Source: Chthonomonadaceae bacterium
GTDB lineage: Bacteria; Armatimonadota; Chthonomonadetes; Chthonomonadales; Chthonomonadaceae
Direction of reading: 5' to 3'
DNA length: 64,000 nucleotides
Assembly: GCA_027450145.1 (NCBI GenBank)
Contig: DAIDKH010000004.1
Location: 1-64,000 of the forward strand
The notes under the pieces are model-generated. The model had not been told where the DNA came from. It searched no databases and saw only the letters and a list, made by a program, of their open reading frames with translations. The first letter of the stretch is position 1; the number at the start of each line of letters is the position of its first letter. Below are positions 35,456 through 40,676 of this stretch, piece after piece. Made by a program: the position numbers and the translations under genes.

Positions 35456-36253
35456 CTAAATGACCCAGTGAGCATCCTTTGGAGGCGTGAACTGGAACAC
35501 GGTGTTTGCAATTGGCTGGTTGATGTGAATATCCTCCAACACCTCAATGGTACTCTCCTTCACGTTGGTCTCTCGAATGACGACCTTGTGAATGAGGTGA
35601 GTTTTTGCGTTGAAGTAGATCACGGCAGGCGGTGCATCTGGTACTAGCGATGCAGTAAGCGTCTGGTATTGCACTCCGTTGTCCGTCTCCATCACGACCG
35701 CTCCCGCGTGTTCAAACGCATTGCGGATCTGTGGATCAGCTAACGGACGATTTTGAATCATAAGCGCCACCAGGTAAGTGCCTACTGCATCAAAATTAAC
35801 ACCGTTTACGATGTCGATGTCGTTAAGCGATGGAGGCGCGGCGGAACGAGTGTATGTGTGATCGGTACCGGAATAGTTCACGTAATAACTGCCATCACAA
35901 ACGGCAGCGCCCTGCGAGGCATCGTCAGATTTGTACACAAATTTGTTGGGCCGCTCAATGGCTAGTGTATACGCATGGTCTGACTCTATTGCATTCTGCG
36001 CATTTCTCTGAATAACCTCCGCAGTATGCTGGTAACTTGACATTTTGCTATACACCGCTGTGGCTTCATCTATGAGCCTCATGACACTCGGCCTAATAGT
36101 CCCGGGTACACTTGTACGTGCCGAAGTTAGCGCCTGTTTAGGAGCCGTCGTAGATGCGTTCTGTTGAGCAACAGCCGGAATTGCTATCGCGGTACTTAAC
36201 AGTATTAGCGGGATCTTTAAACCGGTGCGACCTAGAGGTGATAGTTTTCTCAT
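35456..36253 (-). CDS. DUF2092/LolA-like exported protein
   Basis: The 265-residue protein has a signal peptide (about 1-29, ending 'PAVAQQ'). It reads as a LolA/LolB-like half-barrel of the DUF2092 type: 'YSKMSSYQHTAEVIQRN', 'AIERPNKFVYKSD', 'CDGSYYVNYSG', then paired strands and 'FQFTPPKDAHWV' at the end. Such proteins probably bind lipid or hydrophobic ligands in the periplasm. It stands alone. Confidence 0.75.
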   Translation of the reverse strand: MRKLSPLGRTGLKIPLILLSTAIAIPAVAQQNASTTAPKQALTSARTSVPGTIRPSVMRLIDEATAVYSKMSSYQHTAEVIQRNAQNAIESDHAYTLAIERPNKFVYKSDDASQGAAVCDGSYYVNYSGTDHTYTRSAAPPSLNDIDIVNGVNFDAVGTYLVALMIQNRPLADPQIRNAFEHAGAVVMETDNGVQYQTLTASLVPDAPPAVIYFNAKTHLIHKVVIRETNVKESTIEVLEDIHINQPIANTVFQFTPPKDAHWVI

Positions 36254-36555: not shown

Positions 36556-39500
36556 TTACGACATACCGGGTGGTGGTGGCAGTCCGCCGTCGTCCAGTTC
36601 AGGACGCCTGCCACGCCCCCTGCCTCCTCTCCGGCGACGTCTTCTTGCTTCCTGGGTATCACCGGCGCGCAACAACTCGTCAAGGGTCAATGCGGATGCA
36701 GCGCGCTGCTCTTCCGTCACTGGCGTCAACGGCAGATCGTCTTCATCATCAGCGTAGGCTTCCATAAAATCGTCATCATCCATGGCCGGAATGTCCATGG
36801 TAAGAACAGCACGCAGCGTCTCAAGATCATCGTTTTGCGGAGCTGGCAGATACGGCTCAGGTTCAGGCAGAATAGGATCCGGCTCTGGAAAGTCGAAGTC
36901 CGGTGGCGGAAGTTCATCAGAGTCCAGCTCGGTGGCATGAACCACAGGAAGGGCTGTGGGCATCCCAAGGGATTGTATCTGGCCCAGGGTCCCCATATAA
37001 AACAGACGGGTCGCGCCGGCCCGCATAAAGAAGCGATGATCACGCTGCTTTTCGGACGGATTGATCACCATGCGATTTTCCAGCAAGTCATAAAGTCCGC
37101 TAGGCTCAGGAAGTCGCACCGTTCGATGTCCGTCACGGCTGGCATGCAACGATATCCAGCCATTCCCAACATTCACAATATCCTCTTGATCTGTGTACAG
37201 CGGCACCCCGGCAAACATACAGATACCTCGCAGGAGTTCAGGAGTGAGCATTGGATCGCCAACAAAGATGGACTTCCATCCATGCATCTCTTTCACCACA
37301 ATAGATGGTAATCCAGACTGAGCATACTCAGCCAATACGGTAGCTGCCGCATCGTCCGCGAATAACGATGGATTAAGCCGACGCCGCGTCCCGTAGTCCT
37401 TTCCAGACATCCGCCTGGTAATGGGATGATTAGTCTCGAGGATTTTCGATCCAACCTCGGAGTCGTAGGGTTGACGTCGAAGAACAATTCCTACGGAACC
37501 ACCGGCAGCGTCGTCAACAATTCCAGACGAAGGTATTCTCTCGCAGAGGCCTGGCCCATACACCCAGACGAGTGTGCGATTTCCCGAGTGCAGCTTCTCG
37601 TGAACAGCATTTCGTTGTTCTACGGTCAATCGATAGGGATTCAGAAATAGATAGAGTTTCGCGTCGAGAGGAAATTCTGAGTGCACGATGTCATTTTGAA
37701 GAAAGACGCCAATTCGTGCCCCTGTTCGTGATAGAGTATCTCGCATCCCGATTGTGAGCTGTGCGAAGATATCCTCATCGGGCTGCAGATGCAACAGGCT
37801 TTTCTCATCCACCAGGGCGATTACGTCATATCGAGGATGGAGATGAGCGGGTGCCGGAGCAGACTGAGCGAGTGTGGTAAACCGCGAAATGCGAGCCCAT
37901 ATTTCGGTATCGTTAAGCCAGCCCTCACCCCAAAGGTCCATCCAACCAATGGATGTGCCCGTTGCCAGCGCACGTCCTATTGCACGCAGGTGGGCCTGCT
38001 CCGTTTGCCCCTTGTCCGCAAGCCGCGGATTAAAGTCATCCGGAGCTTGAACTGATGTAGCGAGCCAAGTTTTGGTATCATCCTCGCTAAGCCACAATTT
38101 GCCGTGAAGCCTTACCGAATCGTGTAGACCTGGGATAGACGCCGCCCCGCCCGGCTTACGGTCCTTATAAGAGGGCGGCCCGCAAATGAGATCAACACAG
38201 GGATCATTAAGGACAATGTCCAGTGCAAGATGACCACTATAACTGTGAGTAAACTCGGTGGTGTAACCGTAACAGATGGAGACCAGGGCGGAGTATTGCG
38301 AGGCGCGTTTCACCGCGCGGGCCAATGCACACAGTCTGTGAGCAGTAGACTCGGATGTGAATTCATTGAAATCAATGGTTCGACGATCCCTGCGGGTTTC
38401 CATGAACATCCTGCCCGGCACGGGTTTGGCAGGAGCAGCCGGAATCTCTGCAGTATGGAACTGAACGTCTGCATCGTACCACGAACTGCGCAGAGCAACA
38501 AGATTGTGATTATAACGCTCACGAAGCCAGTCTCTAAATGCATCGCGGTTTGCTATGCTTCGGTCGTAGCCAAGTGCTGCCGGCTGAAACCATTCACCAC
38601 GCTCCAGGTGGTATCCAAATACACGGCTCCCCCACAGCTGGCCCCTGATATGTGTAACCAGCGCGTGTAGAGCGCGTTCACACTCCTGCCAAAAGCGGAC
38701 GCTGGTAATGGACGGATCGCCTGCCGACCCATCGGCATATTGGCTAATATCCGTGGGATACTCGCGGCGCCAGCCTCGAGCCGGCACAAACACAATTCTA
38801 GGCATAACGTATGCGTTAGGATCAGCATCTAGCAGAACACGCAACTGGTTGTCGATTTTATCCAAACTCTGGGCGTCCTCCGACAGAGGACAATATAGCT
38901 CAATAATGGTGGATAAAAGGTGTACCCCCGACTCGGAGGCGCGTTTTACCTGAGCCAAAACATGTTCACGGGAAACGTCGTCTTCAAAGCCACCGAAGAA
39001 AAGTGTTGGTGGATACGGATATCCATTAATATGAATTACCGGAACACCGCCGCGTTCAATAAGATGTGCACCAATAGACCGGTCGATATACGGTAGCGGT
39101 TCGGGTTCTGGCTGGCGTGCGATTGGCGCAGTCACCTCAGATTCCGTGAAAGGTTCTGCGGATGTAGTTGTCGACTTCGACGGTACCTGCGCCACAGCCT
39201 CGCCTGATGCCGACTTGCGGGAACGCCGCGTACGACGCCTTTTTTTGCGAACTCCGGTGGCGTCGGGAACGGTGCTGTCTGCGTCGCTCTCCACCTCACC
39301 CAAGGTGGTTTCCGTATCTGCAATCGCGGAAGAATCTAAGGCTAAGGAAATGTTGTCAACTTCCTCTGTTACCACCTCGTCGACGGTTGGTTCTATTACC
39401 TTTTTCTTGCGGCTGCGTGCTGAACCGGAGCGTGATCGCGACGCCCTTACAGGAGCGGCTACTTCAACAGGAGTATCCTGTGGCACTGTTTCAGCAGGAG

Positions 39501-40077
39501 AGGCATTGAGCAGTTCCACAGACTCATCTGCTGCCAAGACCGCAATAGTCTCTTCCTGTTTGACAGGGCTCTTCTTACGCCTGGTACTGGATCGACGTGG
39601 TGTCGGTTCCGGGGTCGCTGTGCTTATGGCCTCGGGAAGAACTCCCTGAACAGACGGGCCACTGCTCTCCGTGCTGTTATCACTTACAGGGGATTCCTCA
39701 GCTGCCGTACTCTTTGCGCGAGGTTTGCGACTTCGACTAACCTTTTTAGTGGTGCCTGTCTCATTACTATCGATTGAGACTAATTCCTGCGAATTTGCAT
39801 CAACCGCCCGATCGCTCATGGCCGGTTCAGTAGTCGATGGTGCCTCGGGCGAGGGGCTCTTTTTTCTAGTCGTACGCCTAGTTGTAGAAGACTTAGGGAC
39901 AGAAATCTCATCGGGGTCTGTCGTGGATGCTGCGTCGGTCCCCGCGGATTTCACCCGTCTGGATCGGGTACGTAGCGCGGGCGGCGCATCCGCAACAGAC
40001 GGACTCTGCTCGACTGAAGTCTCGACCACATCGGGGCGGGCTTCATTGGTGCCGAGCGGGAGCTCGTCGAAGCTCAT
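36556..40077 (-). CDS. Giant protein with basic disordered N-terminus, GH42-like core and RGG-type tail
   Basis: The 1173-residue protein has three parts. Residues 1-330 are low-complexity, with six basic S/T-R/K clusters (about 36-44, 65-73, 111-122, 161-173, 211-226, 277-289) separated by acidic stretches. From about 331 a GH42-like beta-galactosidase core follows: 'GVPVIHINGYPYPP', 'FGYHLERGEWFQP' with the possible acid/base Glu, and 'HGKLWLSEDDTKTW' with the possible nucleophile Glu, then a glutamine-amidotransferase-like domain. The end is acidic and then 'RRRRRRGGRGRGRR'. There is no signal peptide, so it seems cytoplasmic. The tails resemble nucleic-acid-binding or scaffold proteins and are very unusual for a hydrolase. 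AGGAG lies 8 bases before the start. It is the last gene of the fatty-acid gene run. Confidence 0.72.
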   Translation of the reverse strand: MSFDELPLGTNEARPDVVETSVEQSPSVADAPPALRTRSRRVKSAGTDAASTTDPDEISVPKSSTTRRTTRKKSPSPEAPSTTEPAMSDRAVDANSQELVSIDSNETGTTKKVSRSRKPRAKSTAAEESPVSDNSTESSGPSVQGVLPEAISTATPEPTPRRSSTRRKKSPVKQEETIAVLAADESVELLNASPAETVPQDTPVEVAAPVRASRSRSGSARSRKKKVIEPTVDEVVTEEVDNISLALDSSAIADTETTLGEVESDADSTVPDATGVRKKRRRTRRSRKSASGEAVAQVPSKSTTTSAEPFTESEVTAPIARQPEPEPLPYIDRSIGAHLIERGGVPVIHINGYPYPPTLFFGGFEDDVSREHVLAQVKRASESGVHLLSTIIELYCPLSEDAQSLDKIDNQLRVLLDADPNAYVMPRIVFVPARGWRREYPTDISQYADGSAGDPSITSVRFWQECERALHALVTHIRGQLWGSRVFGYHLERGEWFQPAALGYDRSIANRDAFRDWLRERYNHNLVALRSSWYDADVQFHTAEIPAAPAKPVPGRMFMETRRDRRTIDFNEFTSESTAHRLCALARAVKRASQYSALVSICYGYTTEFTHSYSGHLALDIVLNDPCVDLICGPPSYKDRKPGGAASIPGLHDSVRLHGKLWLSEDDTKTWLATSVQAPDDFNPRLADKGQTEQAHLRAIGRALATGTSIGWMDLWGEGWLNDTEIWARISRFTTLAQSAPAPAHLHPRYDVIALVDEKSLLHLQPDEDIFAQLTIGMRDTLSRTGARIGVFLQNDIVHSEFPLDAKLYLFLNPYRLTVEQRNAVHEKLHSGNRTLVWVYGPGLCERIPSSGIVDDAAGGSVGIVLRRQPYDSEVGSKILETNHPITRRMSGKDYGTRRRLNPSLFADDAAATVLAEYAQSGLPSIVVKEMHGWKSIFVGDPMLTPELLRGICMFAGVPLYTDQEDIVNVGNGWISLHASRDGHRTVRLPEPSGLYDLLENRMVINPSEKQRDHRFFMRAGATRLFYMGTLGQIQSLGMPTALPVVHATELDSDELPPPDFDFPEPDPILPEPEPYLPAPQNDDLETLRAVLTMDIPAMDDDDFMEAYADDEDDLPLTPVTEEQRAASALTLDELLRAGDTQEARRRRRRGGRGRGRRPELDDGGLPPPPGMS

Positions 40078-40241
40078 AAACTTTCTCCTATGCCCTCCTC
40101 AAATCGAGGGCGGTGCCGGATTGCAAAGGCTTAAAATATATCAAAACCTAATCCCGGCTTGCAAAAGTATACATCATTCTAACGAATGGGGTCAATTACT
40201 ATGCGTAATGAACGGACCAGCAAACAACAGCGGCTGTTCAA

Positions 40242-40676
40242 CTAGCGCTGAAGTGCAACACTCACGACTGAGCAAAGCTCCGCAGGTGACACGTAACCCG
40301 CTTTCTCCCACAGTACTGTGCCGTGCCGGCCCACCAACACTGTCGATGGCCATGCGTGAACCGCAATAACCTGGTTGGCCTTTGAGGTCACTCCGCGCTC
40401 AATTCGAACACACACGGTACCAGCAAGGAGACTCACCGTTTTAGGATCAACAAAAGTATTGGCGTCCATCCGCGAACAGTCGCTGGTACCTTGCTCATCA
40501 AAACTGATGAGCAACGGACGGTGCGTTGCAACCGCAAGTCGTTCTGCAACACGATAACTCCCTAACCAATTAACGTCTCCACCTGGACGAGGGGCGTGCA
40601 TTGCTCCAAGAGCGCCAACCGAGGTAAGCAGTAAAAAAGGAAACGCCCAGCCCCGTAATCGGTTAGGAATCTGCAT
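40242..40676 (-). CDS. Exported thioredoxin-like protein lacking the CxxC pair
   Basis: The 144-residue protein has an N-terminal hydrophobic segment (about 8-25) serving as signal or anchor. The rest is a thioredoxin-7/DUF255-like fold: 'HRPLLISFDEQGTSDCSRMD', then 'VHAWPSTVLVGRHGTVLWEKAGY' with the cis-Pro of the family. The expected CxxC reads T-S-D-C, so only the second Cys remains. Dithiol oxidoreductase activity is unlikely; a thiol-binding or structural role is possible. It starts 17 bases after the fabF stop codon and may be co-transcribed with it. Confidence 0.62.
   Translation of the reverse strand: MQIPNRLRGWAFPFLLLTSVGALGAMHAPRPGGDVNWLGSYRVAERLAVATHRPLLISFDEQGTSDCSRMDANTFVDPKTVSLLAGTVCVRIERGVTSKANQVIAVHAWPSTVLVGRHGTVLWEKAGYVSPAELCSVVSVALQR

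Follow-up and report, generated by a model that had tools for sequence, protein, structure and literature searches.

A single-copy GH42-like protein of Armatimonadota with charge-block tails, possibly a glycosidase tethered to RNA or to a different polyanion

The window, a stretch of 64,000 nucleotides from a Chthonomonadaceae bacterium, carries a gene on its reverse strand (36556..40077, (-)) with 1173 codons open from ATG. The gene was recognised by this open frame and by its family of orthologues. The 1173-aa product is built in three parts: a disordered-type N-tail of 327 aa (residues 1-327; 39097..40077, (-)), a GH42-like core (residues 328-1045; 36943..39096, (-)) and a C-tail that contains R6GGRGRGRR (residues 1046-1173; 36556..36942, (-)). 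A promoter-like site, TTGACC-18-TATACT (40166..40195, (-)), falls within the 164-bp gap preceding the frame. It was identified by its consensus match only (10/12), and since 7 such sites were found in the region against 3.5 expected, we consider it weak. The first-pass annotation had reported that the protein lacks an export signal. In support of this, inspection of the window protein N-terminus (MSFDELPLGTNEARPD...) revealed no hydrophobic segment, and the orthologues inspected showed neither a hydrophobic segment nor a twin-arginine leader. Note that signal peptides were assessed by eye throughout, both in the orthologues and in the homologues described below. We infer that the tailed protein is cytoplasmic.

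The N-tail is a low-complexity segment rich in S, T, A, E and P, in which W, F, Y, I and C together account for 3.1% of the residues. Six clusters of R/K, defined as at least 5 K/R in 9 residues, are separated by acidic spacers rich in S, T, P and A. These clusters, all on the (-) strand, are RTRSRRVK, read directly from the sequence (residues 36-43; 39949..39972), followed by residues 59-76 (39850..39903), 106-126 (39700..39762), 155-176 (39550..39615) and 210-230 (39388..39450), and by the RKKRRRTRRSRK region (residues 268-295; 39193..39276). Composition-preserving shuffles of the window N-tail contained a mean of 0.49 clusters and a maximum of 3; as 0 of 2000 reached 6, a chance origin of the clusters was ruled out. 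Moreover, charge segregation in this tail was 8.9 sd over the shuffles. Thus, the six basic clusters with acidic blocks and the R6GGRGRGRR described in the first-pass annotation, whose reading of the frame was exact, are genuine features of the protein. Note that the N-tail as a whole has a slightly negative net charge (-5), so the RNA-binding reading presented below depends on the local clusters.

The tails were also retained among relatives, a check that had been set beforehand. In 61 orthologues, the N-tail had a median of 4 clusters compared to 0.64 in shuffles, and alternating positive and negative charge blocks exceeded chance (median z for charge segregation 6.3). The spacers diverge fast and vary freely among orthologues while the clusters are kept and the core is conserved, so that what persists in the 61 proteins is the architecture. 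Three or more clusters were present in 40 of 41 family members but, among 391 other ORFs with a minimum length of 150 aa, in just 4; family members and other ORFs alike came from the neighbouring regions, which set the scope of this uniqueness estimate. With charge blocks beyond chance and conserved across 11 families, the proposal that the tails resemble those of RNA-binding or condensate-forming proteins gained weight. A variant of the tail was seen in one orthologue (L021, genome G028), whose N-tail contains three RRRRGGRGR-type blocks and whose C-tail has one; this arrangement suggests that both tails may draw on one module.

The C-tail consists of an acidic, Pro-rich stretch, the RGG block RRRRRRGGRGRGRR (residues 1145-1158; 36604..36645, (-)) and a short acidic end, with 15 residues remaining after the block. 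R5-7 GGRGRG(R/K) or a close variant occurs in the C-tail of nearly all orthologues from families f1 (the family of the window) and f3, in which an RG/RGG motif in a disordered segment is therefore present and conserved. To 31 genomes of the order Chthonomonadales we applied a scan for the RGG pattern, and in long coding frames it was practically confined to the tailed gene. The remaining matches whose locus was read lay in short or doubtful frames, and a few matches outside the gene had no locus and were left untranslated. The idea that the block is an artefact of generic tails was consequently rejected, because the loci read in long, clearly coding frames were the tailed gene. We likewise rejected the RNase E/G of the same genome as a relative of the tail, since it has no comparable tail. 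In one orthologue (L024/L102, genome G009) the C-tail appears frameshifted, with KRQPHSSGRSLDARRSGRRH where the RGG block is expected, by assembly error or decay.

Other families end differently. In f2 and f18 the C-tail has no RGG form, and f17 and f6 carry related basic runs in its stead. The proteins of f21 to f25 terminate in a VMFRKRE-like motif (27 of 29 when scored by rule; 0.6 in shuffles). With a stricter DNA pattern of this FRKR-type ending, 40 genomes were scanned; 28 had exactly one match each, and 27 of these fell in the tailed gene. A short VMFRKRE-like motif also recurs within the N-tail of 14 of the 29 f21-f25 orthologues (2.8 in shuffles). The hydrophobic-x-F/W-R motif thus found at the protein end and again inside the N-tail may serve in docking or self-interaction.

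The core is 709-720 aa long in orthologues complete over this region. In the window protein it scored 17.8 bits against Pfam GH42 (PF02449), just under the cut-off of 21, and 17 of 25 orthologues matched this family (E up to 0.1; best E 7.9e-9), which bears out the glycosidase-like core of the first-pass annotation. Profile-profile comparison (hhalign) between the core and true GH42 enzymes of this phylum, taken from the same genomes, gave an E of 5e-6. A structure model of the core had a GH42 beta-galactosidase as its top Foldseek match (E 5.6e-17), and a barrel-only model retrieved GH42, GH14 and GH5 barrels. Note that these models are weak (pLDDT 56 and 57), because the prediction was based on just eight sequences. 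The models and the hhalign comparison point to a GH-A type barrel fold.

Two glutamates are candidates for the catalytic pair, and both are invariant in 61 of 61 orthologues. Glu495 of LERGEW (38593..38595, (-)), the candidate acid/base, aligns with a small gap at the DNE(Y/F) of GH42. The residue before it is Gly in 56 of 61 proteins where GH42 has Asn, the profile alignment being gapped at this site. Glu665 of LSEDDTKT (38083..38085, (-)), the candidate nucleophile, lies past the point at which the GH42 profile alignment stops and was for this reason assigned by position and conservation. Since both residues are invariant, the catalytic pair is probably intact. The first-pass annotation had asked whether both catalytic Glu are in place; the invariance of the two candidates answers this in part, with Glu665 standing outside the profile alignment. 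Compared with GH42 beta-galactosidases (PF02449; PDB 5e9a and 5dfa), the core is alike in fold by Foldseek and profile, in the Glu at the putative acid/base place and in its length. It differs in that the window protein falls below the Pfam cut-off, in the Gly for Asn before the candidate acid/base Glu, and in the long charged tails that flank it at both ends.

Next, we determined the distribution of the gene. With a threshold of E 1e-150, a core profile made from 25 orthologues matched 157 of 173 genomes from 11 Armatimonadota families. It matched 0 of 118 genomes from other Armatimonadota families, among which the best-scoring protein (2.3e-148) is untailed and begins like a signal peptide. 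Of the 16 genomes without a match, several are incomplete; contig ends interrupt the gene in G079 and G084. It is present in a single copy per genome and is kept in genomes as small as 1.5 Mb. A pattern scan of 84,980 species genomes retrieved seven loci, all from close relatives; being a single pattern, it is silent on absence elsewhere. A gene that most genomes in 11 families retain as a single copy, small genomes included, likely matters for basic cell function.

A FastTree phylogeny built from 92 cores placed all 61 tailed proteins in one clade (support 0.986), within which each family with at least two members was monophyletic. The 31 untailed Armatimonadota homologues lay on the opposite side of the tree. 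They share with the tailed proteins roughly 30% identity across most of the core, together with the GEW and EDDT motifs, but none of those inspected has tails, many have signal-peptide-like N-termini as judged by eye, and several copies per genome are frequent. The tails thus define a protein family. Because the root was placed arbitrarily among the untailed homologues, the direction of change, from exported to tailed, is our reading of the tree: most parsimoniously, an exported ancestor would have lost its signal and acquired tails once, followed by vertical inheritance.

We also analysed the gene neighbourhood. In the window, a fabF cluster is followed by a thioredoxin-like gene and then by the tailed gene. 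The first-pass annotation had connected the gene with these fatty-acid genes. The proximity is real, but the genes adjoin the tailed gene only in part of f1 and the neighbourhood is not conserved beyond some f1 members, so we rejected the link as a general feature. At loci with a conserved gene order, the partner is instead era, the gene for a 30S assembly GTPase. In three families (f21, f22 and f24) it lies directly downstream on the same strand wherever one contig covers both genes (74 of 74 loci), often at a spacing of 3-15 bp, an operon-like linkage. However, a search for Era (TIGR00436) at E 1e-45 gave no match in f1-f3, even in G003, which is complete and consists of a single contig; the best matches in the window's genome were other GTPases. 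The tailed gene therefore does not need Era, and since era is absent from the order of the window, partnership with Era cannot be the general function. In several members of f22-f25 and f6 a HAD phosphatase-like gene (Pfam) lies upstream. Five f3 loci have a downstream gene with Pfam UPF0004 and Radical_SAM, which we take to encode an MtaB-like methylthiotransferase. Links of the gene to plasmids, phage families or defence systems were looked for, and none was found.

What could such a protein do? The reading that we favour, giving it about an even chance, is that of a probably active glycosidase of the GH42 superfamily that resides in the cytosol and is tethered there to RNA, or to some other polyanion, by charge-block tails resembling those of RNase E. 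It would be a clade-wide hydrolase, one copy per genome, domesticated from a background of exported enzymes. The core (residues 328-1045) would most likely be a working retaining beta-glycosidase, as its conservation and partial alignment suggest, with Glu495 as putative acid/base and Glu665 as putative nucleophile. The basic/acidic N-tail and the R6GGRGRGRR C-tail would most likely bind RNA through many weak contacts, and so would keep the enzyme on rRNA or mRNA or within a condensate rich in RNA. We infer the catalytic activity and the choice of RNA as ligand, as well as any trimer of the GH42 kind and any condensate. The first-pass annotation had offered a choice between a hydrolase core recruited for another task and an enzyme tethered to nucleic acid; the invariant Glu495 and Glu665 favour the tethered enzyme without settling the matter.

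The closest parallel for the tails is the C-terminal disordered region of Caulobacter RNase E, the enzyme that forms BR-bodies, in which charge blocks drive RNA-dependent condensates (PMC10412687). As in the tailed protein, Arg-rich and acidic blocks alternate on an enzyme; the tailed protein has a glycosidase core, its tail is mainly N-terminal and the likeness lies in charge pattern, sequence homology not being claimed. Both these charge blocks and the linkage to era in f21, f22 and f24 count for tethering to RNA, as does the lack of such a tail on the RNase E/G of this genome. Against it counts that the RGG form is missing in f2 and f18, with other basic runs or the FRKR ending elsewhere. 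A bolder version, which we hold tentatively and consider rather improbable, is that the protein is a glycosidase-cored RNP scaffold that would organise RNA in ribosome assembly or decay, as RNase E does elsewhere, its core cutting or sensing an RNA-associated glycan. Our literature searches found no paper describing the tailed protein and no precedent for a glycosidase core with arginine-rich tails of the RNA-organising type. If the favoured reading is true, a bacterial protein with an apparently intact glycosidase site, RNase-E-like blocks and an RGG tail would join carbohydrate chemistry to RNA organisation, and the linkage to era, in culturable Fimbriimonadia, offers a concrete entry point to this question.

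Another possibility could be that the tails bind a polyanion other than RNA: polyphosphate, the inner membrane face, an acidic polysaccharide substrate or acidic partner proteins. The clusters are generic Arg/Lys, charge blocks alone do not specify RNA, and the substrate could itself be acidic. We nevertheless regard this as somewhat unlikely. The strict R5-7 GGRGRG(R/K) of f1 and f3 is of the RG/RGG type, which is abundant in RNA-binding proteins (PMC8562343), and linkage to era, a KH-domain RNA-binding GTPase, is hard to square with membranes or polyphosphate, although neighbours need not interact.

The joining of a glycosidase core to segments of the nucleic-acid-binding type would also fit a sugar-sensing regulator, whose core binds a glycan or sugar and whose tails bind nucleic acid, reporting carbohydrate status to RNA or DNA. 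A documented parallel exists in plants: in the BZR1-type beta-amylases BAM7 and BAM8, a glycosidase fold serves a nuclear, nucleic-acid-bound regulator that needs its ligand-binding Glu (PMC6394054), and beta-amylases, including a BZR1-type one from maize, are among our Foldseek matches. The plant proteins resemble the tailed protein in combining a glycosidase fold with a nucleic-acid-binding part, but they belong to another GH family, are nuclear, are listed as inactive enzymes and have a folded DNA-binding domain. The tails of the Armatimonadota protein are disordered charge blocks and include no domain that would bind DNA sequence-specifically. Moreover, with both Glu kept in 61 of 61 proteins, catalysis is the simpler account, yet BAM8 has both Glu too. 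On balance we think a sensor of this kind unlikely.

Quite unlikely, in our view, is an ordinary glycosidase that works inside the cell on imported oligosaccharides and whose tails provide solubility or spacing and have no specific ligand. An intracellular location is common among GH42 enzymes, and the tail spacers diverge fast while the core is conserved. But the clusters and the RGG block are kept though the spacers are not, and a gene held in one copy down to genomes of 1.5 Mb is housekeeping-like, which is unusual for sugar scavenging; in addition, the true GH42 enzymes encoded in genomes with the tailed gene come from frames of ordinary length. Finally, export without a classical signal peptide, with the protein acting outside the cell, is suggested by the N-termini of the many apparently exported untailed homologues but is highly improbable, since the orthologues inspected by eye have no hydrophobic segment or twin-arginine leader.

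Two genes flanking the tailed gene in the window deserve mention. Between it and fabF lies the gene for the small thioredoxin-like protein (40242-40676, (-)), which thioredoxin families match below cut-off. Just downstream, at 35456-36253 (-), is a gene for a DUF2092/LolA-like protein, predicted to be periplasmic; it is likewise found downstream in several f1 genomes, once fused to a thioredoxin-like domain.
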